Shown: positions 1,625 through 33,365 of the stretch, piece by piece | How positions within the stretch are numbered: position 1 is the stretch's first letter | Layout: the number at the start of each line of letters is the position of its first letter | Assembly: GCF_001421165.1 (NCBI RefSeq) | Contig: NZ_LMKB01000007.1 | Coordinates: forward strand, 21,470 to 54,836 | Direction: 5' to 3' | Origin: Frigoribacterium sp. Leaf8 | Lineage (GTDB): Bacteria; Actinomycetota; Actinomycetes; Actinomycetales; Microbacteriaceae | Length of the DNA stretch: 33,367 bases | Position numbers and translations under genes: made by a program | The notes under the pieces: generated by a model | What the model was told of the DNA's origin: nothing | The model's database searches: none | The model's input: the letters and a program-made list of their open reading frames with translations, nothing else

Positions 1625-1758
1625 GGGGCCCCCTCTGCACGATCGCGCGGACCGTCGGTGCCGGTCGCACCGATCACACCCGAGGAGGCGCGGGTCGCGC
1701 CCCCGAGATCGCCTCGAGTCTACGGGTGCCCCGCTCCCGACCCGAGGACGCCTCCGCC

Positions 1759-1836
1759 GTCCGGCGGTGCCGTCACGCGGTGCCGTCAGGCGGTGCCGCC
1801 AGACGGTGCCGTCAGGCGGTGCCGTCAGGCGGTGCC
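1759..1836. repeat. Six tandem 13-bp units
   Basis: Six consecutive 13-bp units, consensus GTCAGGCGGTGCC, run from 1759 to 1836; three are identical and the others differ at one to three positions. The array fills the gap downstream of the small HhH gene, and the last unit overlaps its final codons and stop (1825-1827). Because 13 is not a multiple of three, and each intact unit carries TCA (TGA on the minus strand), changes in copy number would leave the protein unchanged. Confidence 0.9.
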
Positions 1837-2259
1837 GTAGAGGGCGGCGGGCAGCTCCCGCGTGAAGATCTCGGCCGTCTTCGGGCCGACGCCCTTGAGG
1901 TCGGTGAGGCGGCGGGTCAGCTCGGCACGGTCGGCCGACGACCGCACGAGGTGGTTCACCGACCCCCAGTCGGAGTCGATGCGCCCCATGACCTCGTGCA
2001 GCTCGTCGCTCATCACGTGGTCGATGCGGGCGTAGCCGGCCTCGTCGAGCAGACGGCGCAGCCCCTCGTGGTCGTGCTCGGCGAAGCGTGCGGGGCTCGT
2101 CAGCCCGTGGTCGACGAGCACCTGGTAGGTCTCGGCGGCCACGCTCTGCTGCACGGGCCGGCCGAACAACACGCTCGCGAGCAGCCAGCGGTACAGCTGC
2201 TGCGGCGAGCCCTCGCTCACGTCGATCCCGAGGTCGGACGGGTGCTTCACGTCGGTCAT
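1825..2259 (-). CDS. Small helix-hairpin-helix protein, endonuclease III-like fragment
   Basis: A 144-aa protein with a helix-hairpin-helix motif, LKGVGPKTAE, at residues 121-130, the DNA-backbone-binding element of HhH-GPD base-excision glycosylases. The preceding helical region (PQQLYRWLLASVLFGRPV and onward) resembles the start of endonuclease III-type folds. The lysine in GPKTA matches the position of the EndoIII catalytic lysine, but the protein ends 14 residues later, so the catalytic aspartate that normally follows and the iron-sulfur cluster cysteines are absent. The ATG at 2259 is chosen because AGGA precedes it; a longer open frame upstream consists only of arginine/proline-rich shadow sequence. 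It may bind DNA structures or be a lysine-only glycosylase/lyase; its function is unknown. Confidence 0.7.
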   Translation of the reverse strand: MTDVKHPSDLGIDVSEGSPQQLYRWLLASVLFGRPVQQSVAAETYQVLVDHGLTSPARFAEHDHEGLRRLLDEAGYARIDHVMSDELHEVMGRIDSDWGSVNHLVRSSADRAELTRRLTDLKGVGPKTAEIFTRELPAALYGTA

Positions 2260-2371
2260 GCCGTCCTGTCTACGCCGGGTGCGCGGCGCGGGTGACGCGA
2301 CCCGCGCCTCCTCGGCTCGCCGTGCGCCGGCGGCCGCGCGGGTCGGCCGCACGGGCCGGCCGAACGACGAC

Positions 2372-2431
2372 GGACCCCGCCCCGGGCGACCGACCACGGG
2401 AGGACGTGGTGGGTCGCCCGGGACGGGGTCC
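2372..2431 (-). terminator. Long GC hairpin downstream of the ene-reductase gene
   Basis: Two 20-bp arms (2372-2391 and 2412-2431) pair with one mismatch, and the loop contains a further ACCAC/GTGGT stem. It begins 17 bp past the stop of the ene-reductase on the minus strand. No U-tract follows, as is common for GC-rich actinobacterial terminators. Termination is inferred from position and stability. Confidence 0.6.
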
Positions 2432-2448
2432 GCGGTGCGGGCGCCGGA

Positions 2449-3534
2449 CTAGCGCGCGGCGCGCTCCAGCGTCGGGTAGTCCGTGTAGCCCTCGGCACCC
2501 TCGGCGTAGAACGTGGCGGGGTTCGGCTCGTTGACCTCGTGGTCACCCTGCCACCGCTCGACCAGGTCGGGGTTGGCGATGGCGAAACGGCCCACGGCCA
2601 CGGCGTCGGCCTGGCCGTCGGCGACCTCGGCGATGGCCTCGTCGCGCGTGGTGATCTGACCGAAGCCGCTGTTGACGATGAAGGCACCACCGAAGCGCGT
2701 GCGGAGGTCCTGGACGAGCTCGCCGCGCAGGTCGGCCTGCAGCACGCTGAGGTAGGCGAGGCCGAGCGGCGTGAGGCCCTCGACGAGCGCACGGTAGACG
2801 GCCGTCACGTCGGCGACGTCGGTCTCGACGACGTCCTGGATGTTGTGCATGGGCGACAGGCGGATGCCGACGCGGCCGGCACCGATCGCCTCGGCCACGG
2901 CGGTCGCGGTCTCGATCGCGAGGCGGGCGCGGTTCTCGGGGGTTCCGCCGTACTCGTCGGTGCGGACGTTCGAGACGGGCGAGAGGAACTCGTGCAGCAG
3001 GTAGCCGTTGGCGCTGTGGATCTCGACGCCGTCGAGCCCGGCCTCGAGCACGGCGCGCTTCGACGCGGCGACGATGTCGGCCGTGACCTGGTGGACCTCG
3101 TCGGTCGTGAGGGCGTGCGGCACGGGGAAGTCGACCTTGCCGGTGGCGGTGTGCACCTGGCCGTCGATGGCGATCGCGCTGGGGGCGACGATGCGGTCGG
3201 TGCGCGTGATGTCGGTGTGCGAGACACGACCACCGTGCATGACCTGCATGACGATCTGGCCGCCCTCGGCGTGGACGGCGTCGGCGACGCGCTTCCAGCC
3301 GGCGACCTGCTCGTCGGTGACGATGCCGGGCTGACCGTCGTAGGCCTTGGACTCCTGCGAGGGCCAGGTGCCCTCGGTCGTGATCAGACCGAAGGAGGCG
3401 CGCTGACGGTAGTGCTCCACCACGACGTCGCCCGGAACGCCGTCGTCACCGGAGCGGAGACGGGTGAGGGGCGCCATGACGAGGCGGTTGCGCAGCTCGA
3501 GCTGGCCGAAGGTGGCGGGAGAAAAGAGGTCCAA
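2449..3534 (-). CDS. Old Yellow Enzyme family ene-reductase (alkene reductase)
   Basis: An FMN flavoprotein that reduces activated C=C bonds with NAD(P)H; the NemA-like branch also reduces nitrate esters and nitro compounds. From the TTG at 3534 it is 361 aa, the usual length. Visible are the N-terminal APLTRLRS FMN region (21-28), the substrate-binding pair H173/N176 in EIHSANGY, the proton-donor tyrosine in TDEYGG (Y195), VNSGFG, and the phosphate-binding AVGRFAIANPDL segment. The TTG is preceded by a strong GGAAGGA six bases upstream, which argues for independent initiation. However, the same frame continues upstream without a stop through a complete MFS transporter. A divergent TetR gene next to the transporter suggests electrophile or drug inducibility, by analogy with NemR/NemA. 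Confidence 0.9.
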   Translation of the reverse strand: MDLFSPATFGQLELRNRLVMAPLTRLRSGDDGVPGDVVVEHYRQRASFGLITTEGTWPSQESKAYDGQPGIVTDEQVAGWKRVADAVHAEGGQIVMQVMHGGRVSHTDITRTDRIVAPSAIAIDGQVHTATGKVDFPVPHALTTDEVHQVTADIVAASKRAVLEAGLDGVEIHSANGYLLHEFLSPVSNVRTDEYGGTPENRARLAIETATAVAEAIGAGRVGIRLSPMHNIQDVVETDVADVTAVYRALVEGLTPLGLAYLSVLQADLRGELVQDLRTRFGGAFIVNSGFGQITTRDEAIAEVADGQADAVAVGRFAIANPDLVERWQGDHEVNEPNPATFYAEGAEGYTDYPTLERAAR

Positions 3535-4779
3535 GGGTGGTCCTTCCGAACGGTGACGCGCCCTCGGGCGGGGGCGCTCGTGAGGCAACGCCCCCGCTGC
3601 ACGATGCATTCCCCGGCCTGCGAGGCCCGGGAGGGCGGCGAGGAGGGCGCCGAGGGCTGCCACGGCGAGGGCCGCGCCGTAGCCGCCGGTCCCGACGAGC
3701 GCGCCCAGGACGACGGCCCCCACGGCCTGGCCCAGCACCAGCAGCACGAAGAGCAGGGCCGTCCCGCTCGCGGCCCGCTCGGCGTCGATCTCGGCCGTCC
3801 AGGCGATCAGCGCACCCGTCGCCGCCGTGTAGGCCCAGCCGAAGGCCGCGCAGGCCACGAACGCCACCGGCACGACGCCCGGCAGGGTCGCCAGCCCGGC
3901 CGTGCCCGCCGCCATCACGGCCAGCGTGAGCGTCCAGACCGCCCCGGGGGCCAGGCGCGCCAGCGGTCGGGCGGTGGCGATGACGGCGGTGCCGCCCGCG
4001 CCGAGGCAGACCCAGGCCCCGACCGACAGCTCGGCCGCCACCCCGGCGTCGACCAGCAACGTGCGCCCGAAGTTCCAGACCCCGGCCGAGGCGGCACCGG
4101 CGAGCAGCGCCGCGACCAGCACCCACCGGTGGTCGACGAACCACGACGGCGGAGGCAGGAGGTCGCGCCCGACCGAGGTCGTGGCACCCGTCGCGTCGCT
4201 CGGTCGAGCCACGGAGCCGCGGTGGTCGAGCACGAGGACGGCCCCGGCCGCGACGATCGCTCCCCCGACGGCCGCCCACCACGCGAGTCGCCAGTCGGGC
4301 AGCACGGCGGACGCCAGGAGTCCCGCCGCCACGAGGCCCGGGCCCGTCCCGGCGTTGACGACCGTCTGGCCGCGCGCCTGCCGTCCGTGCTCGAGACCGC
4401 GCTGCAGGAGGCGCACCAGGGCCGGCGACGCGAGGCCGGCCCCGGCCGAGCTCAGCACGGCCGCGAGCGCGAACGGCACCACGTCGGGCGCGAGGGCCAT
4501 GCCCGCGGCACCGATCGAGGCCGCCGCACCCGCCGTGACGACGAGGCCTCGTGGGTGCCGGGCGGACGCCGCGAACCCCGCCACCGCGCCGGCGACGTAG
4601 GCGAGCGATCCGCCCGACGAGATCAACCCGGCGACGCCGGCGTCGAACCCGAGGTCGGCCTGCGTCTCGGGCAGGTAGAGCCCGTAGGCGAGGCGGACCA
4701 GGCCGTAGGTCACGGCGATCAGGGCCGTGCCGGCCGCGACGAGCCCGGAGCCATTCGAAAACGTACGTTTCATTTTCAC
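2449..4779 (-). CDS. MFS transporter, open in frame into the ene-reductase (apparent fusion)
   Basis: Residues 1-415 (4779 to 3535) form a complete MFS-type carrier: about 12 alternating hydrophobic segments starting at LVAAGTALIAVTYGLV, with YLPETQADLGF after the first segment as in CynX/YbfB-like exporters. It should end near LPGLAGRGMH, but no stop occurs. The frame runs through a 35-residue Pro/Arg-rich linker into the ene-reductase, giving 776 aa. The linker DNA contains a perfect GC hairpin (3568-3597) and the ene-reductase's own ribosome site. Either the transporter is made as a fusion, with free enzyme also produced from the internal TTG, or a stop was lost by mutation or sequencing error. 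The start is GTG 4779 or ATG 4773; neither has a clear ribosome site, consistent with leaderless initiation. The transported substrate is unknown. Confidence 0.72.
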   Translation of the reverse strand: MKMKRTFSNGSGLVAAGTALIAVTYGLVRLAYGLYLPETQADLGFDAGVAGLISSGGSLAYVAGAVAGFAASARHPRGLVVTAGAAASIGAAGMALAPDVVPFALAAVLSSAGAGLASPALVRLLQRGLEHGRQARGQTVVNAGTGPGLVAAGLLASAVLPDWRLAWWAAVGGAIVAAGAVLVLDHRGSVARPSDATGATTSVGRDLLPPPSWFVDHRWVLVAALLAGAASAGVWNFGRTLLVDAGVAAELSVGAWVCLGAGGTAVIATARPLARLAPGAVWTLTLAVMAAGTAGLATLPGVVPVAFVACAAFGWAYTAATGALIAWTAEIDAERAASGTALLFVLLVLGQAVGAVVLGALVGTGGYGAALAVAALGALLAALPGLAGRGMHRAAGALPHERPRPRARHRSEGPPLDLFSPATFGQLELRNRLVMAPLTRLRSGDDGVPGDVVVEHYRQRASFGLITTEGTWPSQESKAYDGQPGIVTDEQVAGWKRVADAVHAEGGQIVMQVMHGGRVSHTDITRTDRIVAPSAIAIDGQVHTATGKVDFPVPHALTTDEVHQVTADIVAASKRAVLEAGLDGVEIHSANGYLLHEFLSPVSNVRTDEYGGTPENRARLAIETATAVAEAIGAGRVGIRLSPMHNIQDVVETDVADVTAVYRALVEGLTPLGLAYLSVLQADLRGELVQDLRTRFGGAFIVNSGFGQITTRDEAIAEVADGQADAVAVGRFAIANPDLVERWQGDHEVNEPNPATFYAEGAEGYTDYPTLERAAR
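3568..3597 (-). terminator. Perfect 9-bp GC hairpin inside the MFS/ene-reductase linker
   Basis: GCGGGGGCG (3568-3576) and CGCCCCCGC (3589-3597) pair perfectly around a 12-nt loop. The hairpin lies after the last transporter membrane segment and about 34 bp before the ene-reductase TTG. This is where an intergenic attenuator or terminator would sit if the two were separate genes, yet no stop codon precedes it. Confidence 0.5.
4759..4770. promoter_or_regulatory. Probable TetR operator, AAACGTACGTTT
   Basis: A perfect 12-bp palindrome lies between the divergent transporter and TetR starts, overlapping the first transporter codons. Only 16 bp separate the two start codons. TAAGCT seven bases before the TetR ATG and TAGGCT just before the transporter GTG could be back-to-back -10 boxes of leaderless promoters, with the palindrome close to both. 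TetR regulators usually bind such symmetric sites; binding here is inferred from position and symmetry. Confidence 0.6.
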
Positions 4780-4795
4780 AGCCTAAGCTGTCCGC

Positions 4796-5386
4796 ATGCC
4801 CCTGCGCCCGGCCAGCGAGAAGAAGATCCTCGACGCCGCCGACGACCTGTTCTTCACGAACGGCATCGCCGCGACGCCCGTCGACGCCGTCCTCGCCCGC
4901 GCCGGCGTCTCGGCCGCGACGATGTACCGCGGCTACCGCAGCAAGGAGGCGCTGGTCGCCGCAGCGCTGACCCGTCGCCACCACGACTGGCTCGCCACCT
5001 GGGACGCCGCCGTCGCCCGGTGCGACGAGGCCGGCCCGCGCCTCCTCGCGGTCTTCGACGCGTTGGACGACTTCCGGTCCCGCCCGACGGGGGCACGCTG
5101 GTGTGCGTTCCTGGCCTCGGCGGCCGAGTACGTCGATCCGCCCGCCGACGTCGCCGAGGCCGTGCGGCTCGACACCGAGACGCTGCGGACGCGACTCACC
5201 GACCTGGCACGCCCGCTCGTCGGCCCCGAGGCCGAGGGGCTCGCCGAACGCCTGCTGCTGGTGGTCACCGGCGACCTCGCCATGCGACTCCGCGAGCCCG
5301 ACCGCGACACGACGACGGGCCGGGCCGTCGCGGCGTCGCTCATCTACGCCGCCGGCGCCACCGGCGCCCCGAGCCCCGGCCGCTGA
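4796..5386 (+). CDS. TetR/AcrR family transcriptional regulator
   Basis: A 196-aa one-component repressor of typical size. The N-terminal helix-turn-helix occupies about residues 8-54 (KKILDAADDLFFTNGIAATPVDAVLARAGVSAATMYRGYRSKEAL in outline, with the recognition helix at SAATMYRGY). The C-terminal all-helical part, which binds the inducer and dimerises, is divergent; its ligand cannot be predicted. The ATG at 4796 follows a -10-like TAAGCT by only seven bases and has no ribosome site, suggesting a leaderless mRNA. It is divergent from the MFS/ene-reductase unit with a palindromic operator between them, so it probably represses that unit and itself. Confidence 0.88.
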   Translation: MPLRPASEKKILDAADDLFFTNGIAATPVDAVLARAGVSAATMYRGYRSKEALVAAALTRRHHDWLATWDAAVARCDEAGPRLLAVFDALDDFRSRPTGARWCAFLASAAEYVDPPADVAEAVRLDTETLRTRLTDLARPLVGPEAEGLAERLLLVVTGDLAMRLREPDRDTTTGRAVAASLIYAAGATGAPSPGR

Positions 5387-5412: not shown

Positions 5413-5419
5413 GGCGGTC

Positions 5420-6334: not shown

Positions 6335-7084
6335 TCAGTCGAGCGGATCGGGCCCGACGGGGTCGGGCCGCATCGCACGCCGCACCCGCGCGACGACCGA
6401 CGGCGCGGGCGGATCGTTGTACGCGCCCGCCTCGACCTGGCCGCTGAGACGCTGGACGGCCGCCATCACCTCGTCGGTGGCGTGGCGACGAGCCCGACCC
6501 GACTTCGCCTCCCCGTGGTGCGAGAGGTCGATGGGCTCGCCGAACTCGACGGTGACCTTCCGGAGGCGCGGGAGGCGCGTGCCCACCGGCTGCAGTTCCT
6601 GCGTCCCCGTCAGGGCGACCGGCACGACCGGGGCCCCGCTCGTGAGCGCGAGCCAGGCGACGCCCGTCCGGCCGCGGTAGAGCCGCCCGTCGAGGGAGCG
6701 CGTCCCTTCGGGGTAGATCGCGAACGCGTCACCGTCCGTCAGCTTGCCGAGGCCCAGGTCGAGGGCGTGCTGCGCGGCGGACCCGGCCCCTCGCTCGACG
6801 CCGATCGCACCGATGCCGGTGAAGAAGGCCCGCGACGCCCGACCTTTGAGACCCGAGCCGGTGAAGTAGGCGTTCTTCGCGAGGAACGAGACCTGACGGG
6901 GTGCCATGAGGGTGATCACGACGCTGTCCATGAACGAGAGATGGTTGCTGGCCAGGATGACGGCGCCGCGCCGCGGGACGTTGCGGCGCCCGATCACCCG
7001 GGGGCGCCAGACCGCGCGCACCAGGGGTGACAGGACCGAACGGCTGAGGGTTGTGAGCACGCTCCACTGTGCCCGACGCCACAT
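6335..7084 (-). CDS. 1-acyl-glycerol-3-phosphate acyltransferase (PlsC family)
   Basis: A 249-aa membrane-associated acyltransferase that would esterify lysophosphatidate or a related lysolipid. The catalytic HX4D motif is NHLSFMD (47-53; H48, D53), the substrate-binding motif is EGTRS (126-130), and the GAPVVPVAL motif IV follows. The C-terminal 40 residues are Pro/Arg-rich and variable. The start used is ATG 7084, with GGGGA immediately before it; an internal GTG a few codons later is possible. It is transcribed toward the dehydrogenase with a 39-bp gap, so the two may share a transcript. Whether it is the housekeeping PlsC or a paralogue cannot be told here. Confidence 0.87.
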   Translation of the reverse strand: MWRRAQWSVLTTLSRSVLSPLVRAVWRPRVIGRRNVPRRGAVILASNHLSFMDSVVITLMAPRQVSFLAKNAYFTGSGLKGRASRAFFTGIGAIGVERGAGSAAQHALDLGLGKLTDGDAFAIYPEGTRSLDGRLYRGRTGVAWLALTSGAPVVPVALTGTQELQPVGTRLPRLRKVTVEFGEPIDLSHHGEAKSGRARRHATDEVMAAVQRLSGQVEAGAYNDPPAPSVVARVRRAMRPDPVGPDPLD

Positions 7085-10047: not shown

Positions 10048-11043
10048 TCAGTCGACCCGCGCCTCCTGGGGACGGTCGTCGGTCGGACGGGCACCGGGGA
10101 CGAGGGGTTCGCCCGGCGCGGGAGCGCCGGGCACGAGAGGAGCGCTGCGGACCGTCACGAGCCCGGCGCGTCGGGCCGCCCGCAGCACGAGCCACACGTA
10201 GAGCGGCGTCGAGACCAGCGTCACCGCCAGGGCGAGGGGGCTGCCGTCGCTCGACTCGACGCCCGCGAAGGGGGCCGACAACAGGAAGAGCACGGTGTTG
10301 TTGAGCACGTGCGCGACGATCGCCGCCTCGAGCCCGCCGGTGCGCCAGGTCAGGTAGGCCGCGGCCACGCCGAACACGGCGACGTCGAGCATGCCCCACG
10401 CGTTGTAGTCGTGGCCGAACGCGAACCCGACCGTGGGCAGGACGATCGCCGCGATCGGGTACCTCGACCACGAGCCGATCGTCTGCAGGGCGAGCCCGCG
10501 GAACGCGTACTCCTCGGCCGTCGCCTGGAGCGGCGTGACCACGAGGATGACCACGACCGCCCAGACGAGGGTGTCGGCCGGCGTGGTGACCGGGCCGGTG
10601 CCGATCGGTTCGCCCGACAGCGGGGGCACCACGACGTAGCTGAGCCCCACCGTCAGGGCCATGAACGCGAGGGCGGGCACGAGGCATCGCACGAGCCACC
10701 GCCAGCGCAGCCGCCCGGCGACGCTCGAGAGGCTGCCGACCGCGCCGGGGCCGACGATCAGCGTGCCCAGCATGATGGCCGGCAGCATGACCGCGATCGA
10801 GGCGAGCGTCGTGAAGAGCACGAGCGGGTCGGCGGCGGCCAGGGCGTCGCCCTCGATGCCGCGCTGCAGACGTTCGGCGGCGGCGGTGCCGCCCACGGCC
10901 GTGGTCACCCCGAGGACTGCCACGTAGACCACGACCGACGCGAGCAGGTACGTGACGGCCGCCACGACGGCCGCCAGCAGCGGTTTCCACCACCGGTACG
11001 AGGGCAGGGAACGGAAGAGGCGGTGGTACGCGAACGTCGTCAC
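10048..11043 (-). CDS. CPBP (CAAX/Abi) family intramembrane metalloprotease
   Basis: A 331-aa polytopic membrane protein with about eight hydrophobic helices and the glutamic-protease-like CPBP motifs: TAEEYAFRG (E177, E178, R182), FAFGHDYN (H211) and AHVLNNT (H245, N248). Bacterial members process or degrade membrane peptides, protect against self-made bacteriocins or help anchor regulators; the substrate here is unknown and no bacteriocin gene is adjacent. The start is GTG 11043. The C-terminal tail is Pro-rich, and its final residues QEARVD are encoded by a copy of the dispersed decamer (10057-10066). Confidence 0.87.
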   Translation of the reverse strand: MTTFAYHRLFRSLPSYRWWKPLLAAVVAAVTYLLASVVVYVAVLGVTTAVGGTAAAERLQRGIEGDALAAADPLVLFTTLASIAVMLPAIMLGTLIVGPGAVGSLSSVAGRLRWRWLVRCLVPALAFMALTVGLSYVVVPPLSGEPIGTGPVTTPADTLVWAVVVILVVTPLQATAEEYAFRGLALQTIGSWSRYPIAAIVLPTVGFAFGHDYNAWGMLDVAVFGVAAAYLTWRTGGLEAAIVAHVLNNTVLFLLSAPFAGVESSDGSPLALAVTLVSTPLYVWLVLRAARRAGLVTVRSAPLVPGAPAPGEPLVPGARPTDDRPQEARVD

Positions 11044-11111
11044 CCGACGAGCGTACGGGAGGCGCGGTGCCGGTCGGTCGTGCCGCCGTCGCCTCCGCGC
11101 CGCCGCGCGAT

Positions 11112-14093: not shown

Positions 14094-14222
14094 GCACCGA
14101 CCCTGCCAGACCCGACGGGACGAGGAGGCGCGGTGCCGGTCGCCACCACCCCGCACCCCCTCAGGGCCCTCGCGTTAGGGTGGGTCGTCGTCCGAGCCGC
14201 GGGCGCAGGGAGGGGCCCACCC

Positions 14223-15098
14223 GTGACCGATGCTCGCCGACGTCTCGCCGTCCTGGGGTCGCCGATCGAGCACTCGCTGTCACCGGTGCTGCACCGCACG
14301 GCGTACGAGCACCTCGGCCTGCCCTTCGACTACGACCGGGTCGAGGTTGCCTCGGGCGGGCTCGCCGACTTCGTCGGGGGCCTCGACGCGAGCTGGCGCG
14401 GCCTGAGCCTGACGATGCCGCTCAAGCGCGAGGTGCTGCCCCTGCTCGACACCGTCTCTCCGCTCGCCCGACGTCTCGGGGTCGCCAACACCGTCGTCCT
14501 CGACGACCACGGTCGCCGCCACGGGCACAACACCGACGTGGACGGCATCGTCCGCAGCGTCGAGGGATTCCACGACGCCCGGCCCGCCGCGGCCACCATC
14601 CTCGGCGGGGGCGCCACCGCCCTGTCCGCGATGGCCGCCGCGTGGGATCTCGGCGCCCGGTCGTTCTCGATCCACCTGCGCAACCCCATGCGCGCCGGCG
14701 AGCTGACGTCCCTGGCCGCCGAGCTGGGCGCCGACGTCATGGTCGCCCCGCTCACCGAGCTGCCCTCGCTCGGCCCGTTGGACTTCGTCATCAGCACCTT
14801 GCCCGGAGGCGCGGCGGACGACCTCCACCTGCGTCCGGCCGGTGGCTCGTCCGTCCTCTTCGACGTCGCCTACGAGCCCTGGCCGACGCGCCTCGCGTCG
14901 CGCTGGTCGGCCGACGGGGGCATCGTCTTCAACGGCCTCGACATGCTCGTCGAGCAGGCGCTCGGCCAGGTCAGGCTCTTCTCCGGGCGGGCGCAGGACG
15001 AGCCGGTCCCCGACGAGGGCGTCCTGCGCGACGCGATGCGCGCCTCCGTGGGCTCGCCGATCCGCGACCGGTCGACGACCGACAGCGTGGCGCGCTGA
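14223..15098 (+). CDS. aroE: Shikimate dehydrogenase
   Basis: Reduces 3-dehydroshikimate to shikimate with NADPH in aromatic amino-acid synthesis. The 291-aa product shows the substrate loop GSPIEHSLSPVLH (12-24), the catalytic lysine K68 in LTMPLKRE, the catalytic aspartate D105 in NTDVDG, LGVANTV before it, and a dinucleotide loop GGGATA in place of the usual GAGGA. The final helix GLDMLVEQALGQ is typical. GTG 14223 is chosen because GGGAGGGG lies seven bases upstream. A TAGGGT -10 box at 14176-14181 is a likely promoter. aroD starts two bases after its stop, so the pair forms an operon catalysing consecutive steps. Confidence 0.93.
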   Translation: MTDARRRLAVLGSPIEHSLSPVLHRTAYEHLGLPFDYDRVEVASGGLADFVGGLDASWRGLSLTMPLKREVLPLLDTVSPLARRLGVANTVVLDDHGRRHGHNTDVDGIVRSVEGFHDARPAAATILGGGATALSAMAAAWDLGARSFSIHLRNPMRAGELTSLAAELGADVMVAPLTELPSLGPLDFVISTLPGGAADDLHLRPAGGSSVLFDVAYEPWPTRLASRWSADGGIVFNGLDMLVEQALGQVRLFSGRAQDEPVPDEGVLRDAMRASVGSPIRDRSTTDSVAR

Positions 15099-17119: not shown

Positions 17120-17149
17120 CCCGAGGGTCCGACGCGACCCGAGAACGCA

Positions 17150-17181
17150 GGAGGCGCGGTGCCGGCTGGCACCGCGCCTCC
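17150..17181. terminator. Bidirectional terminator made of two opposed copies of the dispersed repeat
   Basis: GGAGGCGCGGTGCC (17150-17163) and its exact reverse complement (17168-17181) flank the loop GGCT: a perfect 14-bp hairpin between the convergent DUF6458-type gene and phoA. Each arm contains the window-wide decamer GGAGGCGCGG, so the repeat has here been assembled into a hairpin. Confidence 0.75.
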
Positions 17182-17203
17182 CGTGTGTCGGGGCGGGGAA
17201 CGC

Positions 17204-19135
17204 CTAGAGCTGCACGCCGTCCTGCACGGACGCCGCGCGGTGGCGGCGACGCAGCACGAGGGCCGCACCGGTGCCGGCCAGCATCAGCGCGAGCAGCAGG
17301 GCGGGCAGGGCGTCGGAGCCGGTGAACGCGAGGGGGCCGCTTCCGTTGCCGGCCGTCCCCGCGCCTCCTGCGCTCGAGCCGTCAGCGGGGACCGCCGCGG
17401 GCGGGGTCGTCGGAGCCGGGGTGACGGCGCCTTCGACGACGGCGACGGTCGTCGCCAGCGTCGTGCCGCTCTGCGTGCCGGTCAGCGTGATCGTGTAGCT
17501 GCCGGGCTCGGTGGGGGCGGTGACCGTGTAGGTCGCGACGCCGTCGATCACGTCGGCGATGCCGAGGTCGGTCACCGTGCCGTCGACGTCGAGCGTGCCC
17601 GTGACCTGGCGGTCGCCGGCGAGGCCGGCGGTGCTGACCGGGAACTCGGCGCCGGGGGCGACCTCGGTCGGAGCCGAGATCGTCGCGTCGGTGCTGAGGC
17701 CGTCGAGGTCGCGGTCGAGCTGCAGGGCGTTGACGATGGTGAAGAAGTTGTCGGTCTGGTCGATCAGGCCGACGACGTTCGCGGCACCGGGGCCGTAACC
17801 CGCGACGCGCAACTGCGTGCCGGTGTGCTGCTGCGACCCGCCCGCCGCGGCGGTGCCGTAGGCGATCTTCATCGTGGTGCCGTCGACCGTCGTCAGCGCG
17901 GTGCTGAGCGTGGCGGGCGGCGTCGAGTCGACGATCTGGCTGGTGTGCGCGTGGTCCGCCGTGACGATGACCATCGTGTTGCCGTCGGCCTTCGCGAAGG
18001 CGAGGGCGGACTGGACGGCCTCGTCGAGGTCGAGGACCTCACCGATCTGACCGCAGGCGTCGGCGCTGTGGTCGCGCTTGTCGATCGAGGCACCCTCGAC
18101 CTGCAGGAAGAAGCCCTGGTCACCGGTGTCGAGCAGGTCGATCGACTTCTCGGTCAGCGACTGCAGCGAGAGGCCGGTGGACAGGCGGGCCGGGTTCGGC
18201 AGGCAGGTCTGCGGGGCCAGGTCGGCCCCGCCGACGGTCGCCGTGGTGGCGGCGTACCGGGTCGGGAAGTTGCCGTCGGTGAAGGTGCCGAGCACGGGCT
18301 GCGCCTGGTCGGCGGTCGTCAGGGCGTCGAGGCCGGCCGCGTCGCGCACGACCTGGTAGCCACGGTCCTGCGCCTGGGCGAACAGGGTGTCGCCCTGCCA
18401 CTGACCGGCACGGGCGGACTGGCCGAACGAGGTCGCGCCTCCGCCGAGGGTCAGGTCGGCACGGGTGCCGATGATCTGCTCGCTGATCGAGCCGAGGCCG
18501 CCCTGGTCGAGCGCGTCGGCGCCGCACTGGGTGACGCTGTCGGGGCCGTAGCAGCTGCGGGCGGCGACGTGCGCGGCCTGCACGGCCGGGGTGGCGTCCT
18601 GCAGCTCGGCGGTCGAGACGTTGCCGGTCTTCTTGCCGTTGGCCTTGGCGATCTCGAGCAGGGTGTCCTGCGGGACGCCGTCGACGTCGACCGAGATGGC
18701 GTTGTCGTAGGTCTTGGTGCCGGTGGCCCAGGCGGAGCCGGTCGCGGCGGAGTCCGGCACGTAGTCGGGCTTGCCCTTGTTCGCGCCGTCCCGGTAGACC
18801 GAGTACGTCGTGTACTGGCCGGTCAGGGGCAGGGCGTCGATGCCGGGCAGCGTTCCGCCGGCGCCGAAGGCGTAGTTGCGCGCCGACGTGATCTCGCTGT
18901 CGCCCATGCCGTCGCCGATCAGCAGGATGACGTTCTTGGCGGGGCCGGCCTCCACCGAGTCGAGCAGCAGCTGCGTGCTGTCGTCGATGCTGCGGGCGGC
19001 ACCACCGTTCTGGGCGACGTTCGCGGGGGTGGCCGCGAACGCGGCGACGGGGCTGAGGGCGAGGGCGGCGGCGGCCGTCGCGACGACCCCCGTCGTCAGG
19101 GCCGCACGCCGGCGGTTCGGGGTGTTCTTCGACAC
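17204..19135 (-). CDS. phoA: Secreted, wall-anchored alkaline phosphatase (PhoA type)
   Basis: A 643-aa exported phosphomonoesterase of the E. coli PhoA class. The signal peptide has NRRRAA followed by a hydrophobic stretch and cleavage near AFA-34; the twin arginines allow Tat export. Metal and catalytic motifs: GDGMGDSEI (74-82), the nucleophile serine S129 in [39 protein letters not shown] and QHTGTQLRV. Unlike PhoA of enterobacteria it continues with an Ig-like beta domain (about 480-575), an Ala/Gly/Ser linker and LAFTG (602-606) with a hydrophobic helix and RRRHR, a sortase E-type anchor. GTG 19135 follows AGGAGCA. Upstream 11-nt GTTCAC repeats suggest PhoP control. Confidence 0.94.
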
Positions 19136-23671: not shown

Positions 23672-23725
23672 CCGCGCCTCCCCGGGTCCGGCACCGCGCC
23701 TCCTCGGGTCCCGCGCCGCGCCTCC
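23672..23725. repeat. Three dispersed-decamer copies, 22 bp apart
   Basis: CCGCGCCTCC occurs at 23672-23681, 23694-23703 and 23716-23725, each exactly 22 bp from the next and in the same orientation. The middle copy belongs to the 16-mer form CCGGCACCGCGCCTCC (23688-23703). The group occupies the divergent gap between sbcD and the M20 peptidase gene. The 22-bp period is two helical turns. Confidence 0.85.
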
Positions 23726-23765: not shown

Positions 23766-24977
23766 ATGCCCGCACACCGTGGCGGGCCCGACGAGAGCGA
23801 GACCGTGAGCCACGACGCCCTGCAGCCCGACCAGGTCACCGCCCTCCGTCGCGAGGTCGAGGCCCGCCTCGACGCGATGGTGGCCGACCTGACGACCTAC
23901 GCGAGCCTCGAGACGCCGTCCGACGACGTCGACCTGCTCGAGGCGGGGCTCCGCTGGATCGAGACCTGGCTCGGCGAGACCGTCGGCCCGCCGGCCGAGC
24001 GCCGCGTGCACGTCGTCGAGGGCTACGGCGACACGGTGACCCTCGACTACCCGTCGCCGTCGGGCTCGACCGAGTGGGTGTCGGCCCTGTGCCACTACGA
24101 CACGGTCTGGTCCGAGGGGACGCTGGCCGGGTGGCCCGTCACGGTCGAGGGCGACCGCATGACCGGCCCGGGCGTCTTCGACATGAAGTCCGGGCTGATC
24201 CAGCTCGGCAACGCCCTCGCGATCGGCGACCGCCTGGGGCTGCCCCGGCCGAACGTGCGCCTGCTGCTCAACGGCGACGAGGAGGTCGGCAGCATCGCCT
24301 CGCGGGAGGCGATCGAGCGCGAGGTCGGACGAGGAGGCGCGGTGTTCGTCTTCGAGTCGGCCGCCGACGGTGCCGTCAAGACCGCCCGCAAGGGCGTCGG
24401 CATCTTCGAGGTCGAGGCCTTCGGGGTCGAGGTGCACGCCGGCCTGCACCCGCGCTCGGGTGCGAGCGCCGTCGACGAGATCGCCCGCGTCGTCCTGGCC
24501 CTGCACGCGGCCGCCGACGTCGAGGCGGGCACCTCGCTGAACGTGGGAGTGCTGCAGGGCGGCACCCGCACCAACGTCAAGGCCGGCTACGCCCGCGCGA
24601 TGGTCGACGTGCGCGTCACCTCGTCGACCGAGGCCGAGCGCATCGAGCGGGTGTTCGCCGGGCTCGCGGCGCACGATCCGGCCGCGACGCTGAAGGTCAC
24701 CGGCGGCTGGAACCGCCCGCCGATGGAGCGCTCGGTCGCGACCGGCGCGCTGTACGAACGCGCCGCCCGGGTCGCCACCTCGCTCGGCTTCGAGTTGCGC
24801 GAGGTGTCGGTCGGCGGCGCCAGCGACGGCAACTTCGCCGCCGCGCTGGGCCTGGCCGTGCTCGACGGGGTCGGCGGCGTCGGCGGCGGAGCGCACGCCC
24901 GACACGAGTGGATCAGCGTGCACGGCATGGTCGAGCGCACCGAGTTCGTCAGCGCCCTGTTCGCCGACCTCGCCTAG
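23766..24977 (+). CDS. M20 family metallopeptidase (glutamate carboxypeptidase-like)
   Basis: A 403-aa dizinc exopeptidase or amidohydrolase of the M20A group, closest in layout to carboxypeptidase G2 and acetylornithine/succinyl-diaminopimelate enzymes. Metal ligands are seen in LCHYDTVW (H and D), GVFDMKSG (bridging D) and NGDEEVGS (catalytic and metal E). The dimerisation domain starts after FEVEAFGVEVHAG, and SVGGASDGNF and HARHEWI carry the last conserved residues. No signal peptide, so it is cytosolic. The ATG at 23766 has a weak GGAG upstream; GTG 23805, 13 codons later, is equally plausible. GRGGAV is encoded by a copy of the dispersed decamer at 24331-24340. Substrate unknown. Confidence 0.87.
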   Translation: MPAHRGGPDESETVSHDALQPDQVTALRREVEARLDAMVADLTTYASLETPSDDVDLLEAGLRWIETWLGETVGPPAERRVHVVEGYGDTVTLDYPSPSGSTEWVSALCHYDTVWSEGTLAGWPVTVEGDRMTGPGVFDMKSGLIQLGNALAIGDRLGLPRPNVRLLLNGDEEVGSIASREAIEREVGRGGAVFVFESAADGAVKTARKGVGIFEVEAFGVEVHAGLHPRSGASAVDEIARVVLALHAAADVEAGTSLNVGVLQGGTRTNVKAGYARAMVDVRVTSSTEAERIERVFAGLAAHDPAATLKVTGGWNRPPMERSVATGALYERAARVATSLGFELREVSVGGASDGNFAAALGLAVLDGVGGVGGGAHARHEWISVHGMVERTEFVSALFADLA

Positions 24978-26148: not shown

Positions 26149-26258
26149 CCCTCGATGCTCGCCCGTCGATCGGACCCGGCCGCGCCTCCAGAACTTCGCT
26201 GTGGACGACCGCCCGCCCACCGCGTCATGTCGACGAGACGACCTATGCGCACCGAGAA

Positions 26259-27234: not shown

Positions 27235-28892
27235 CAGAAGAGCCCGCCCGGCTGGGCGGCGGCACCCGCGAGGGCGTCGGGAGCGACGATGCCGAGCTGC
27301 CGCACCTCGGCCGCCGTCAACGAGGGGAGGCGCGTGGCCAAGTCGACGAACCGCTCGACCTCGGCGTCGGGCAGCACGCCCTCGGCCAGCGTCCGGAACT
27401 TGCGCACGTAGTCCTCGCGTCCGAAGGGCCGCGCCCCCAGGGGGTGGGCGTCGGCGACGGCGATCTCGTCGACGAGGGTCGTGCCGTCGACGAACTCGAC
27501 CTCGATGCGGCCGCCGAACGCCTTCTCGGTGGGGTCGGTCGAGTGGTAGCGGGCCGTCCAGGCGGGGTCCTCCGCCGTGGTGATGCGCTGCCACAGCTCG
27601 ACGGTGTCGGGACGCTGCGCCCGGGCCGGGGCGTAGCTGCGCTCGTGGTGCCACTCGCCGTCCTGCAGGGCGACGGCCACGATGTAGGGGATGGAGTGGT
27701 CGAGCGTCTCGCGGCTGGCCGTGGGGTCGTACTTCTGCGGGTCGCCCGCTCCCGAGCCGATCACGACGTGCGTGTGGTGGCTGGTGTGCAGCACGATGCC
27801 GCGCACCTGTGCCGGGTCGCGGAGGGCGAGGTGCGCGCGGCCGAGCCGCCGGGCGAGGTCGATCCAGGCCTGGGCCTGGTACTCGGCCGAGTGCTCCTTC
27901 GTGTACGTGTCGAGGATGCCCCGCTTGGACGCACCCGGCGCCGGCAGGGGCACGTCGTACGACGCCCCGGGTCCGTCGAGCAGCCGGGCGATCACGCCGT
28001 CCTCACCCTCGTAGATCGGGGCGGGACTGCCCTGGCCCCGCATCGCGCGGTCGACGGCCTCCACCGCGGCCTTGCCGGCGTAGGCCGGGGCGTAGGCCTT
28101 CCACGACGAGATCGCCCCCTTGCGGGACTGCCGCGTGGCCGTCGTCGTGTGCAGCGCCTGGCCGATCGCCTGGTGCACCACCTCGGTCGAGAGCCCGAGC
28201 ATCGTGCCGAGGCCGGCCGCGACCGACGGGCCGAGGTGGGCGACGTGGTCGATCTTGTGGGCGTGCAGGCTGATCGCCCGGACGAGGTCGACCTGCACCT
28301 CGTAGCCGGTCACGATGCCGCGCAGCAGGGCCGCACCGTCGAGTCCGCGGTGCTGTGCGACGGCGACCATCGCCGGGATGTTGTCGCCGGGGTGCGAGTA
28401 CTCCGCCGCGAGGAACGTGTCGTGGAAGTCGAGTTCGCGCACGGCGACCCCGTTCGCCCAGGCGGCCCACTCGGGCGAGACGGGGTGCTCGGGCGCGACG
28501 CCCGTGACCTGCGAGCCCGCGCCTCCGGTGGTCGGCGGATGCGCGAGCGCCTGGTCGCGTGCGACGGCGACCGGCGCGCGCAGCAGCGACGCGGCCGAGA
28601 CGGCGGCGTTGTCGATCAGGCGGTTGATCACCATCTCGGTCACGTCGTCGTCGACGGGTGCGTCGTCGGTCGCGAGCACGGCGAGGCGCCACGCGAGCTC
28701 GTCCTCGCGGGCCAACGGCTGGTCGCTGCGGTGCACGCGGACCGTGTGCACGACCAGGTCGGCGGTCGGGGCGCCCGACTCGCCCATGACCCCGGACGAG
28801 GAGGCGCGGGTCGCGTCGCTCCCGCCGCTCTCGTCGGTCGTCGCCCCGGCGTCGTGTGCGTGCTCAGACGCCTGCTCGTGCTGCGTGCCCAT
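27234..28892 (-). CDS. prpD: 2-methylcitrate dehydratase (MmgE/PrpD family)
   Basis: Dehydrates 2-methylcitrate toward 2-methyl-cis-aconitate in propionate degradation. The PrpD domain runs from about residue 36 ([12 protein letters not shown]) to the C-terminus, with conserved [49 protein letters not shown], and [18 protein letters not shown] 28892 has AGAGAGGG seven bases upstream and adds a 35-residue Ser/Thr/His-rich extension. The inner ATG at 28787 would remove the extension but is preceded by CCTCCTCG, the opposite of a ribosome site. Residues TRASSS in the extension are encoded by a copy of the dispersed decamer (28800-28809). It is coupled to prpB. Confidence 0.9.
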
Positions 28893-29852: not shown

Positions 29853-29879
29853 CGCCTCGTGACGCGATCGTGATCCTGG

Positions 29880-29919
29880 CCGGCCCGACCTCATCCTCTG
29901 GGACGAGTGCTCGGGCCGG
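29880..29919 (+). terminator. Hairpin between the Ltp-domain and lipoprotein genes
   Basis: CCGGCCCGA (29880-29888) and TCGGGCCGG (29911-29919) pair perfectly around a 22-nt loop, 28 bp after the Ltp-domain stop. TAGCGT at 29929-29934 directly follows and may be the -10 box of the next gene, so the two genes are probably separate transcripts. Confidence 0.45.
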
Positions 29920-29980
29920 ACCGGTCTGTAGCGTCGAGAGCGACCACCGGAGGACGACCGGAGGCCAGGAGGGCACGACC

Positions 29981-30661
29981 ATGAGGAGCACGACCACGAT
30001 GCGCACCGCCATCGGCACGGGGGCCACGGCCTGCCTGATCCTGGTGCTGACCGCAGGCTGCACGGGCGGCGCCGGCGACGCGACGCCGAGCCCGTCCGAG
30101 ACGAACTCCGCGTCGCCGTCCTCGGCCACCGGCACGGCCACCGCCACGCCCGCCCCCACGCCCGCGCCCACCGAGACCGCCGGCCCGGTCGCCCTCCCGG
30201 TCGACTGCACCGACATCGTCGACCAGGCCACCTACGCCTCGACCTTCGGCGACATCCCGCTCAACCCGGTCGAGTTCGGCGGCTCGGGCACCAGCTCGGG
30301 CGTGGTCACGCCGACCACCCCGCCCGCCGGGGCCGGCGCTCGTGACGTCGTCGGGGCGGCGACCGAGCTGTCCTGCCTCTGGCGCGATCCGCGGGCCGAC
30401 GTCTCGGGCATCTCGGTCGCGATGGGCCACCTCGAGCCCGCCGCCGGCGCCGCGGCCCTCGACGGTCTCGCCTCGCAGGGCTACACCTGCACCTCGGTCC
30501 ACGAGGGGCGCAGCTGCCAGCTCGTGACGCCCGACCCGCTGTACCCGGTGGACCGCGCGCAGACCTACTGGCTGCGCGACGACGTCGTCATCACCGTCGA
30601 CCAGACGAACGTGCCGACGGACGACCTGATCGGCTCGATCGCGACGCGCCTCTTCGGCTGA
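29981..30661 (+). CDS. Secreted lipoprotein, unknown function
   Basis: A 226-aa lipoprotein: a short basic start, a hydrophobic core and the lipobox LTAGC with the modified cysteine at residue 27. A Ser/Thr/Pro/Ala linker (about 32-68) leads to a folded domain with cysteines in VDCTDIV, LSCLW, YTCTS and RSCQL, enough for two disulfides. The layout resembles the DUF3558-like actinobacterial lipoproteins, but I cannot assign it. AGGAGGG lies eight bases before ATG 29981. The stop is followed immediately by a dispersed-decamer copy and a long palindrome. Confidence 0.8.
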
Positions 30662-30680
30662 ATCCGCGCCTCCTGCACCT

Positions 30681-30746
30681 GTCGCACCGTGGACCGGACG
30701 TCGCACCGCCGAATCCGGCGGTGCGACGTCCGGTCGGCGGTGCGGC
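30681..30746. repeat. 66-bp palindromic element, GTCGCACC family, copy 2
   Basis: Core arms of 13 bp (30699-30711, 30716-30728) pair perfectly around AATC, the reverse complement of the copy 1 loop. Outer arms pair imperfectly, as in copy 1. Compared with copy 1 the inner stem differs at arm positions 10 and 12, and the partner bases differ to match (A-T to G-C, G-C to C-G). It sits between the convergent lipoprotein and acetamidase genes. Confidence 0.88.
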
Positions 30747-30788
30747 GCACGCGCAGCGCACGCGCGGCGCACGCGCAACGCACGCGCG
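30745..30788. repeat. Four tandem 11-bp units
   Basis: Four consecutive copies of GCGCACGCGCR (30745-30755, 30756-30766, 30767-30777, 30778-30788), the last with one change. The array directly abuts the 66-bp palindrome and ends eight bases before the acetamidase stop. Confidence 0.88.
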
Positions 30789-30795
30789 GCGGGCG

Positions 30796-31746
30796 CTACA
30801 ACACGTGCTTCGGGACGCGGTGCAGCGTGACCGCGCCGACGGCGTCGAACGGGTGCAGCGGGTCGGGGGCGACCGAGCCGGTCGGGCCCCCGAGCCTCGA
30901 GTGCCCCACGGCGCTGAGCACGGCGTAGGCGTCTCCGCGCGACCAGCCGTGGTCGTCCACGAGGAACGAGAAGGCGTCCTCGTACCCGCGGCGGATGCTC
31001 TCCTGCACCGGGTCGCCGAGGCCGACGAAGATCCAGTCGTCGGCGGTCTCGATGCGCGGCGCCCGCAGGCCGAGACCGGGCACCAGGTCGATCGAGACGA
31101 CCGCCGTGCCCTCGGCCTCGATGGCCACGAACGATGACTCGCCCTCGGCCATGATCGCGTGCACGTCGCCGATCGACAGGTACGCCCCCTCGACCATGAC
31201 CGGGAGGTAGACCGTCGACCCGACCGTGTTCTCGGTGACGTCCATGTTGCCGCCCTGGGCGTACGCGGGCATGATCGTCGAGTTCTCGCCCTCGGCGGGC
31301 GCCGTGCCCATGCAGCCGATCATCGGCCGGGCCTCGAACACGTGCCGGTCGGTGACGTGCACCCCGTCGGAGTCGATCGGCACGCGGCGGGTGAACATCT
31401 CGTCGCCCATGACGTGCTGCAGGGCCCCGGACCCGGGCAGGCTGACCGACCAGCCGTGCTCGATGAGTCGGATCTCGTGCACCGTGACGGCGAGCGCGTC
31501 GCCGGGCTTCGCGCCCTCGACGTAGACCGGCCCGGTGACCGGGTTGATCGGCACGGACAGCTTCGCGAGGTCGTGGTGTCGGTGCAGCTCGGCGTAGACC
31601 GCGTCGCTCGTCTCGAACCCGATGCGTTCGCCGGTGCCCGGCTCGATGCGCAGGGCCGGTGGCACCGTGGCCGTGAAACCGGGGCGACCGTGCTCCTTGC
31701 CGAGGAAGTGGTCGATCCCTTCGCGGGCGGCGTCCTCGGCGGTCAT
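30796..31746 (-). CDS. Acetamidase/formamidase family hydrolase
   Basis: A 316-aa amidase of the FmdA/AmdA family, which releases ammonia from formamide, acetamide or similar short amides. Family landmarks: LSVPINPVTGPVYVEGAKPGD near residues 63-83, GCMGTAPAEGENSTIMP, GGNMD, and GDVHAIMAEGE with the metal-site histidine and glutamate. No signal peptide; cytosolic. ATG 31746 overlaps the permease stop by four bases (31743-31746), so the two are translationally coupled. The pairing suggests the permease brings in the amidase substrate. The open frame extends upstream only as a shadow of the permease gene. Confidence 0.9.
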   Translation of the reverse strand: MTAEDAAREGIDHFLGKEHGRPGFTATVPPALRIEPGTGERIGFETSDAVYAELHRHHDLAKLSVPINPVTGPVYVEGAKPGDALAVTVHEIRLIEHGWSVSLPGSGALQHVMGDEMFTRRVPIDSDGVHVTDRHVFEARPMIGCMGTAPAEGENSTIMPAYAQGGNMDVTENTVGSTVYLPVMVEGAYLSIGDVHAIMAEGESSFVAIEAEGTAVVSIDLVPGLGLRAPRIETADDWIFVGLGDPVQESIRRGYEDAFSFLVDDHGWSRGDAYAVLSAVGHSRLGGPTGSVAPDPLHPFDAVGAVTLHRVPKHVL

Positions 31747-33197
31747 GCGTCGCGCCGTTCCGAGTCGGCCGCGGGCACCGACGTGACCGCCGGCTCGTCC
31801 GCACCCTGCCCGAGGGACGGCGCCGCGCCTCCTCGGCTGCGGTAGTAGAGGAACACGCCCGCGCCGAGCACCAGCCAGACGAGCCCGCCGATCTTGGCCT
31901 CGGGTGCCGCGTTGACCAGCACGTAGCCGATGATCAGGAACCCGACCACGGGCACGACGAGGTGCAGCAACCAGTTGCGCGACTTCTTCTTCACGACGTA
32001 GTGCACCACGACGGACACGTGCAGCAGCATGAAGCCGAACAGCGCCCCGAAGTTGACCAGCGACGAGATGACGTCGATCTGGCCGACGAAGAACAACACG
32101 AGCACGGCCGAGAGCGCCGACACGACGAGGATCGCGGCCTGCGGCACCTGACGCGTGTTGATCTTCGACAGGAACGCCGGCAGCTGCCCGTCGCGGCTCA
32201 TCGAGAACAGCAGGCGCGACGTCGCGGCCTGGGCGGCCATGGCGTTCGCGATGCCGACGGCCAAGACGTTGACGACGAAGAACGCCGTCGCCCACCCGCT
32301 GTTCGACGCCTCGCGCACGAGGTCGAAGAAGGCGTTCCCGGCCTCGCCCTCGGGGAACGAATCGCGGCCGCCGGCGAGCGCGCTGGCCAGCCAGGTCTGC
32401 AGGATGAAGCAGAACGCCACGATGAAGAGCGCGATGATCATGGCCTTGCCGGCTCCGCCGCGCTTGCCGGTGCTCTCCTCGGCGAGGGTCGAGATGCCGT
32501 CGAAGCCGAGGAAGCTCAGCACGGCGATCGACAGCGCCGAGGCGATCAGGGGGGCGGTGACCTTGCTGGAGTCCCAGATCGGGTCGGTCGTGAACTCGGC
32601 ACCGGGGATCGTGCCGCCGTTGAGCGCGGTCACCGCGATGATGACGAAGATCACGATGAAGACGACCTCGATGGCGAGGAACACCCGGTTCATCAGCTTG
32701 ATCGAGCTGATGCCGAGCAGGTTCACGGCGGTGTTGACGGCGACGAAGATCAGCGCCCACATCCAGCGTGCGGTGCCCGGGAAGATGCCGATCATCGACT
32801 CGGCGGCGAAGACGTAGAGCAGCGTCGGCACGAGCAGGTAGTCGAGCAGGATGGCCCAGCCGGCGAAGAACCCGGCCACGGGGTGGATGCCCCGCCCGAC
32901 GTACGAGAAGACCGACCCGGCGAGCGGGATCGACTTCGCCATCTGCGCGTAGGCGAGCGCGGTGAAGATCATCGCGACGAGGCCCACCAGGTAGACCAGC
33001 GGCACCATGCCCGAGGAGGCGTTGTAGACGGTGCCGAAGATCGCCCAGGGCGCGATCGGCACCATGAAGATCAAGCCGTAGATGAGCAGGTCGACGGTCG
33101 AGACCGACCGCTTGAGTTCTTGCTTGTAGCCGTACTGCTCGAGCTGCTGCTGGTTGCTCAGCTCACCGCCGGAGGCGGCCTTCGTGGGCAGGGACAT
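31743..33197 (-). CDS. APC family amino-acid/amine permease
   Basis: A 484-aa secondary transporter with 12 predicted membrane helices. The N-terminal LKRSVSTVDLLIYGLIFMVP, then PLAGSVFSYVGRG and the conserved LGFDGISTLAEE around helix 6 are typical of the amino acid-polyamine-organocation family. Both ends are cytosolic and polar; RGGAA in the C-terminal tail is encoded by a dispersed-decamer copy (31823-31832). ATG 33197 follows GAGAGAG by seven bases. It is the first gene of an operon with the acetamidase, so amides or an amidated amino acid are likely substrates; the family alone does not decide. A GGTGCG-rich array lies immediately upstream. Confidence 0.9.
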   Translation of the reverse strand: MSLPTKAASGGELSNQQQLEQYGYKQELKRSVSTVDLLIYGLIFMVPIAPWAIFGTVYNASSGMVPLVYLVGLVAMIFTALAYAQMAKSIPLAGSVFSYVGRGIHPVAGFFAGWAILLDYLLVPTLLYVFAAESMIGIFPGTARWMWALIFVAVNTAVNLLGISSIKLMNRVFLAIEVVFIVIFVIIAVTALNGGTIPGAEFTTDPIWDSSKVTAPLIASALSIAVLSFLGFDGISTLAEESTGKRGGAGKAMIIALFIVAFCFILQTWLASALAGGRDSFPEGEAGNAFFDLVREASNSGWATAFFVVNVLAVGIANAMAAQAATSRLLFSMSRDGQLPAFLSKINTRQVPQAAILVVSALSAVLVLFFVGQIDVISSLVNFGALFGFMLLHVSVVVHYVVKKKSRNWLLHLVVPVVGFLIIGYVLVNAAPEAKIGGLVWLVLGAGVFLYYRSRGGAAPSLGQGADEPAVTSVPAADSERRDA

Positions 33198-33230
33198 GGT
33201 GTGCTCTCTCGCTCGGGTGGGGATCGGGTC

Positions 33231-33330
33231 GGTGCGGATGCGGATGCGGGTGCGGGTGCGGGTCGGGTCGCGGGTGCGGGTGCGGGGGTGCGGGTGCGGT
33301 CGGGGTGCGGGTGCGGTCGGGGTGCGGGGC
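33231..33330. repeat. GGTGCG hexamer array upstream of the permease gene
   Basis: About 100 bp made almost entirely of GGTGCG/GATGCG hexamers, with a higher-order unit of roughly 17-18 bp (GTGCGGGTGCGGTCGGG) repeated near 33290-33325. Four GGG runs at 33248-33267 with 2-3 nt loops fit a G-quadruplex on the plus strand, the permease template strand. It begins 34 bp before the start codon, where the promoter should be. Confidence 0.8.
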
Positions 33331-33331
33331 G

Positions 33332-33365
33332 GGAGGCGCGGGCCGCGTCGGTTCAGGAGGCGCGG
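33332..33365. repeat. Two dispersed-decamer copies at the right edge
   Basis: GGAGGCGCGG occurs at 33332-33341 and 33356-33365, same orientation, 24 bp apart, directly after the hexamer array. The window ends two bases later, so what follows is unknown. Confidence 0.85.

Follow-up and report, generated by a model that had tools for sequence, protein, structure and literature searches.

What maintains a ten-base word at high density, on both strands, through a stretch of actinobacterial DNA? The question is raised by 33,367 nucleotides of Frigoribacterium sp. Leaf8, a member of the Microbacteriaceae (contig NZ_LMKB01000007.1, positions 21,470 to 54,836; hereafter the window), in which an initial annotation had listed 22 exact copies of the decamer GGAGGCGCGG. 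We found all 22, the copy listed at 24331 lying two bases further on, at 24333. The annotation expected about one copy from composition, in agreement with the 1.11 obtained from 100 dinucleotide shuffles (maximum 6). Its proposal of a genome-wide signature was borne out too: the 3.33-Mb genome (12 contigs) contains 1,578 copies (787 forward, 791 reverse), against 68 (39 + 29) of the reversed word. We favour the view that the word forms the core of a recognition signal that is spread over the whole chromosome of Frigoribacterium with no strand preference.

A sample of 433 kb, made up of 400 kb of contig C1 and the window, held 230 decamers, compared with 5.6, 17.2 and 61 expected from Markov models of order 4, 5 and 6, respectively. 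The Markov count that the annotation had proposed as a check therefore shows an excess that is not limited to the window. The best single word for the core was AGGAGGCGCGG, with 170 copies versus 1.5 expected in the same 433 kb; it differs from its own reverse complement and is thus non-palindromic. For pair counts we used the 8-mer core GGAGGCGC. Within genes, copies exceeded the codon-usage expectation in all six frames, by 12.6- to 147-fold (one frame is represented by a single copy), with the largest excesses in rare-codon frames, one of these resting on a single copy; 133 coding copies were counted versus 14.5 after within-gene synonymous-codon shuffling (maximum 22 in 50 trials). Among 30 shuffled decamers, the highest ratio of exact copies to expectation was 2.2. 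One could argue for an artefact of composition or codon usage, the word being GC-rich and reading Glu-Ala-Arg in one frame. However, the order-4 Markov, codon-usage, synonymous-shuffle, reversed-word and shuffled-word controls all fail to produce the word, other high-GC genera of the family are without it, and we give this explanation practically no credence. A ribosome-binding site was considered as well, as the core contains AGGAGG, and was rejected on the symmetric orientation of the copies.

Regarding placement, gene models came from a simple purpose-written caller, so that gene ends are approximate. Over the 400 kb, 122 of the 208 copies were coding, 85 were non-coding and one was straddling. 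Densities per kb were 3.25 in gaps between convergent genes, 1.51 between tandem and 0.43 between divergent genes, and 0.36 in coding sequence; a second Frigoribacterium genome, G302, gave 3.62, 1.12, 0.38 and 0.35, respectively. The ratio of non-coding to coding density, put above tenfold by the annotation, is lower, at 6-fold in the window (2.33 vs 0.38 per kb) and 3.9-fold over the 400 kb (1.40 vs 0.36). The first and last tenths of genes were richer, with 22 and 18 of the 122 coding copies, which perhaps comes in part from the approximate gene ends. Placement figures are weak for Curtobacterium flaccumfaciens (G300) and for G001, where only 61% and 65% of the samples were called coding.

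The strands were used equally, with 104 copies on each over the 400 kb and no swing along that stretch. Each enriched genome had balanced forward and reverse totals, with the largest difference in G295 (92 vs 124), and in C. flaccumfaciens the first 100 of the 251 forward copies extend to 1.66 of 3.84 Mb. FtsK-orienting polar sequences (KOPS) and Chi are strand-biased along replichores, and a word of that kind is ruled out by these counts.

Close pairs of copies have a preferred arrangement. Neighbouring copies of GGAGGCGC 14-45 bp apart comprised 17 head-to-head, 12 direct and 6 tail-to-tail pairs; 13 of the 17 head-to-head pairs lay between genes, 12 of these 13 at most 46 bp from a stop codon. 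Decamer pairs within 80 bp were 15 head-to-head, 10 direct and 4 tail-to-tail, with 8 of the 15 head-to-head pairs at exactly 27 bp, and 7 of the 15 gave folding energies of -35 to -49 kcal/mol. If the word were a terminator of transcription or an element of mRNA 3' ends and had spread through hairpin formation, this would account for inverted pairs that fold strongly and lie mostly just after stop codons, and for the low divergent-gap density over the 400 kb. Yet more than half of the 208 copies are coding, the 15 head-to-head pairs among them leave most copies unable to form such a hairpin, and copies in tandem gaps point either way (32 opposite, 20 same), all of which makes a terminator quite improbable.

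The core is strict within and looser at its ends. The first A and the final two G tolerated changes (145 vs 11 expected), the one-mismatch excess falling nearly all at end positions of the word, and the sole inner exception was the change of the seventh base from C to T (9 vs 1.1 expected). For the 11-mer, the excess over base composition was 100-, 3.7- and 0.66-fold with zero, one and two mismatches. Two types of flank were found 3' of the core, GTCG and TGCC, the latter frequent in head-to-head pairs; the flanks of copies showed only weak base preferences a few bases out.

These features bear on the remnant of a mobile repeat suggested in the initial annotation. Repetitive extragenic palindromic (REP) sequences and bacterial interspersed mosaic elements (BIMEs) are short, prefer intergenic DNA and form hairpins, and some REPs start with GGAG. 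The Frigoribacterium word also starts with GGAG and has inverted pairs and 22-bp direct copies, as a REP/BIME-type repeat moved by a REP-associated tyrosine transposase (RAYT) might. However, the genome gave no match to the Y1 (RAYT-type) transposase family PF01797 in a search that was positive in 5 of 14 control genomes. Besides, flank preferences are weak, near-copies with inner changes are not in excess, many copies are coding and use all coding frames, and positions are conserved. The transposase negative and the flank structure largely refute this reading, which we consider very improbable.

Conservation was measured in the 91% identical DNA of G302, aligned over 78 kb. There, 54 of the query contig's 69 copies were aligned and 47 of them were intact, compared with 36.5% of flanking decamers (binomial P 2e-14, with neighbouring sites treated as independent); counted from G302, 47 of 57 copies (113 in the G302 stretch) were intact versus 41.2% of decamers. 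For the window, 15 of 18 aligned copies were intact in G302 against 45% of all aligned decamers, and in the more distant G218 this was the case for 3 of the 7 copies with any aligned base, against 18% of decamers. A few other frequent decamers reach similar conservation, mostly ones with 8 to 17 copies, and the median of 570 was 0.5. As copies are intact far above flanking decamers, they stay in place and are maintained. The word is scarce on one large plasmid: in the 200 kb read of pCPAA3 from Curtobacterium pusillum AA3 (CP018784, 567 kb) there were 2 copies, versus 29.7 expected at the density outside the plasmid, as estimated from the genome's 597 copies less about 6 on the plasmid. Counts in phage Min1, whose host belongs to another genus, were excluded from the comparison.

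A site for chromosome architecture or segregation, where a nucleoid-associated protein binds the word and purifying selection keeps its copies, would agree with the strong conservation in place, the strict core with few near-copies, the scarcity on the part of pCPAA3 read and the irrelevance of the coding frame. But the word has no replichore strand bias, unlike the segregation and recombination words KOPS and Chi, and architecture alone leaves the hairpin-forming pairs at gene ends unexplained. We regard such a site as a possible reading, although an unlikely one.

To place the word in the family, we counted it in 299 genomes. Strong enrichment was found in all seven Frigoribacterium genomes of the set (842 to 1,578 copies), in all six of genus g32 (216 to 688 copies), each with at least twice the count of the reversed control, and in one of five genomes of genus g55 (399 copies, control 142). 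None of the other 281 genomes had both more than 100 copies and twice the reversed control. Among named genomes, four of Frigoribacterium carried 903 to 1,494 copies and four of Curtobacterium 232 to 928; g32 is probably Curtobacterium, in which the decamer is less dense than in Frigoribacterium.

By analogy with known systems, the most likely function of AGGAGGCGCGG in Frigoribacterium would be that of a DNA uptake sequence, a proposal that we hold tentatively and at slightly less than an even chance. The word on DNA of lysed kin would be bound by ComEA or by a protein at the tip of the type IV pilus, the pilus together with ComEA and ComEC would import the word-bearing DNA, and recombination would spread word-bearing alleles, with copies accumulating and being kept in this model wherever they are harmless: at gene ends, in spacers and in tolerant codons. 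We infer a naturally competent organism in which the word itself is recognised, and read by one of these proteins. An uptake sequence would itself be a protein-binding site, another of the options named in the initial annotation.

The anatomy of the word matches that of DNA uptake sequences in most points. The DNA uptake sequences (DUS) of Neisseriaceae are, in the available portions of PMC3630211 and PMC12616744, words of 10-12 bases with thousands of copies between genes and in permissive coding places, with inverted pairs that form terminator-like stem-loops, dialects around a constant core, and a type IV pilus and ComEC machinery whose genes Frigoribacterium also carries. Unlike DUS, the Frigoribacterium word is an unrelated GC-rich sequence, belongs to another phylum and lacks an excess of inner near-copies. 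The uptake signal sequence (USS) of Pasteurellaceae has a core of about 9 bases and steeply loses its excess at one mismatch, according to the portion of PMC1939737 at hand; its sequence is again unrelated, and it has been tied to uptake by experiment and has its one-mismatch forms in excess.

The annotation had compared the word to HIP1 (highly iterated palindrome 1) of cyanobacteria, and the comparison stands as to class, HIP1 being a short word over-used throughout a clade, with a function under debate (PMC4390886, in part). It falls short in that HIP1 is a palindrome linked to methyltransferases, whereas this word is non-palindromic and favours gene ends, and the hairpin-forming inverted pairs at gene ends resemble DNA uptake sequences more closely than HIP1. 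A reading in the manner of HIP1, with the word kept common by a methyltransferase specific to the genus or by a mismatch process, would find support in HIP1 itself, which shows in the same portion of PMC4390886 that words linked to methylation can attain such a frequency, and in the GCGC and CGCG within the decamer. Nevertheless, HIP1 and most such cyanobacterial words are palindromic in that source, and modification or repair leaves the gene-end and head-to-head preferences unexplained; we judge this explanation improbable.

Several genes of the putative machinery for uptake were identified. The window genome has a type IV pilus operon on contig C1, at about 314 to 328 kb, with genes for PilB with an MshEN domain, a second T2SSE ATPase, PilC, a pilin, PilD, PilM and PilO. 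Further pilin-like N termini were seen by eye, and the presumed PilN of this operon gave no Pfam match. ComEC was found in 11 of 11 Frigoribacterium genomes, including that of the window, and in the congener G218 a ComEA (SLBB + HHH) directly precedes it.

A number of observations weigh against an uptake sequence. Near-copies altered at the eight inner core positions are at expectation (30 vs 27), and the decamer has no one-mismatch excess, with 19-, 1.05- and 0.66-fold at zero, one and two mismatches over base composition, while known uptake sequences keep a significant one-mismatch excess in the portion of PMC1939737 at hand. The scarcity on pCPAA3 was seen on a single plasmid, read over 200 of its 567 kb, from a related genus and with a lower GC content (~67%). 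Gaps in the window show no avoidance of divergent genes, with 2.10, 2.71 and 2.36 copies per kb in convergent, tandem and divergent gaps (11 copies, the divergent gaps holding 4 in 1.7 kb). For G110 and G218, sampled over just 40 and 76 kb, counts of the 8-mer core gave no clear convergent preference: tandem gaps had 3.73 and 2.87 per kb, convergent gaps one copy each, and divergent gaps 3 and 2 copies. ComEC occurs in 148 of 150 family genomes irrespective of the motif that they carry, and being near-universal it is not discriminating. Of the 47 larger genomes without PilM that are compared below, 18 still have at least 300 copies of the word CGGATGCC per Mb, including the densest, G057. Finally, literature searches on competence in Microbacteriaceae found nothing on the topic.

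Searches for the word found nothing on it, as judged by title or start of abstract among the matches listed, and no publication was found that joins DNA uptake sequence, overrepresented and Actinobacteria. DNA self-recognition at uptake is known from only two bacterial families in the available portion of PMC12616744, which dates from 2025. If true, an independent case in Actinomycetota would test the repeated evolution of such watermarks by molecular drive. If the function is not uptake, the word is still a chromosome-wide signal in common plant-associated bacteria, and easy to assay.

Other words are over-used elsewhere in the family. In samples of 20 to 200 kb, GGATGCC-type words were over-used in many other genera, and several sampled genera gave no clear over-used word. 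We found TGGAGGCG over-used in g55, CTGGAGGCGC in C. flaccumfaciens and CGGATCCG in g35. As a word of C. flaccumfaciens, TGGAGGCG was rejected (27 vs 25 for the reversed form), the word of this species being CTGGAGGC (46 vs 10.4). GGATGC-type words, pooled over ten genera, had 1.66 copies per kb in tandem gaps, 1.28 in convergent gaps, 0.67 in coding sequence and 0.50 in divergent gaps. A common GGA[T/G]GC core suggests possible dialects.

CGGATGCC reached 4,093 copies in one genome, compared with 232 to 307 in Frigoribacterium (three genomes), and was low in most family genomes below 2 Mb; its reversed control is too low because it contains TAG. In a survey of the order (119 genomes), the 111 of other families were below about 150 copies per Mb, and Microbacteriaceae reached about 1,000, with many members lower. 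Genomes of at least 2.5 Mb with PilM had a median of 320 copies per Mb (69 genomes), and those without it 185 (47 genomes), with P values of 0.026, and 0.05 on genus means (phylogeny ignored). This association gives weak support to a family-wide link to the pilus if GGATGCC is a dialect.

GGATGCC itself shows, in G057 and G106, only a 2-fold excess over an order-4 Markov model, and 3.5- to 6.3-fold compared with synonymous-codon shuffles. The excess over such shuffles is present in all coding frames (4.1-fold in G057 and 3.5-fold in G106, but only 1.3-fold in Frigoribacterium). In both genomes GGATGCC is even, at about 2 per kb in coding and non-coding DNA alike, unlike the Frigoribacterium word, and this spread therefore speaks against one system for the two. 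It is conceivable, if rather doubtful, that Microbacteriaceae have a family-wide uptake-sequence system, the first outside the two proteobacterial families, with genus dialects (GGATGCC, TGGAGGCG/CTGGAGGCGC and AGGAGGCGCGG) read by a pilus or ComEA variant, and that Frigoribacterium switched dialect and lost the GGATGCC signal.

Turning to the individual copies in the window, positions here are those of the window, and conservation refers to G302 unless G218 is named. Between genes, the copies at 1684..1693 (+), 2302..2311 (-), 14124..14133 (+; mostly gapped in the G218 alignment) and 26180..26189 (-) are conserved, and that at 11058..11067 (+) has two differences. Also between genes are the head-to-head pair 17145..17186, with decamers at 17150 (+) and 17172 (-), both conserved, and three direct copies at 22-bp spacing in 23672..23725 (-; 23672, 23694 and 23716), two of the three conserved. 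In this pair, an inverted repeat, the arms are 19 nt long, 89% complementary and separated by 4 nt. The copy at 30664..30673 (-) lies just past the end of the gene called at 29999-30661; it has no aligned G302 counterpart and four differences in G218.

Among coding copies, 6562..6571 (+) and 24333..24342 (+) are conserved in both G302 and G218, as is 10057..10066 (-), near the 3' end of its coding region. Those at 17359..17368 (-), 28517..28526 (-), 28800..28809 (+) and 31823..31832 (-; one difference in G218) are conserved in G302. The copy at 14805..14814 (+) has three differences in G302 and four in G218, and 5036..5045 (-) has no aligned counterpart in G302. The copies at 33332..33341 (+) and 33356..33365 (+) are intergenic provided that the ATG at 33197 is the start of the last gene (open reading frame 31743..33197). 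With that start, the split is the 13 non-coding and 9 coding copies given by the annotation; the simple gene caller extends the last gene over both copies and returns 11 and 11.

Some minor observations concern other words and genes. In genus g85, G164 has 313 copies of CGGATGCC and its congeners G106, G215, G258 and G296 have 2,309 to 3,329, a within-genus loss or switch of that word. Three over-used words are palindromic and have a HIP1-like look: GATCGCGATC in g49 (L195-L196), CGCGATCGCG in g77 (L193-L194) and the above-mentioned CGGATCCG in g35 (L199-L200). C. flaccumfaciens (L171-L180) also has GGTGCCGAGACAGG, whose 12-mer pieces have 9-10 copies versus about 0.05 expected in 200 kb and which is possibly a separate dispersed repeat. 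The plasmid pCPAA3 has an over-used word of its own, CTATGCGCGG, with 39 copies in 200 kb versus 0.2 expected (L283, L285, L286, L287); by eye it often lies just upstream of an ATG, reversed relative to that ATG, and a promoter particular to the plasmid may have CCGCGCATAG as its -10 box. In the window, the open reading frame 2449-4779 encodes an MFS transporter domain and, after it, one of an FMN oxidoreductase, an unusual fusion.

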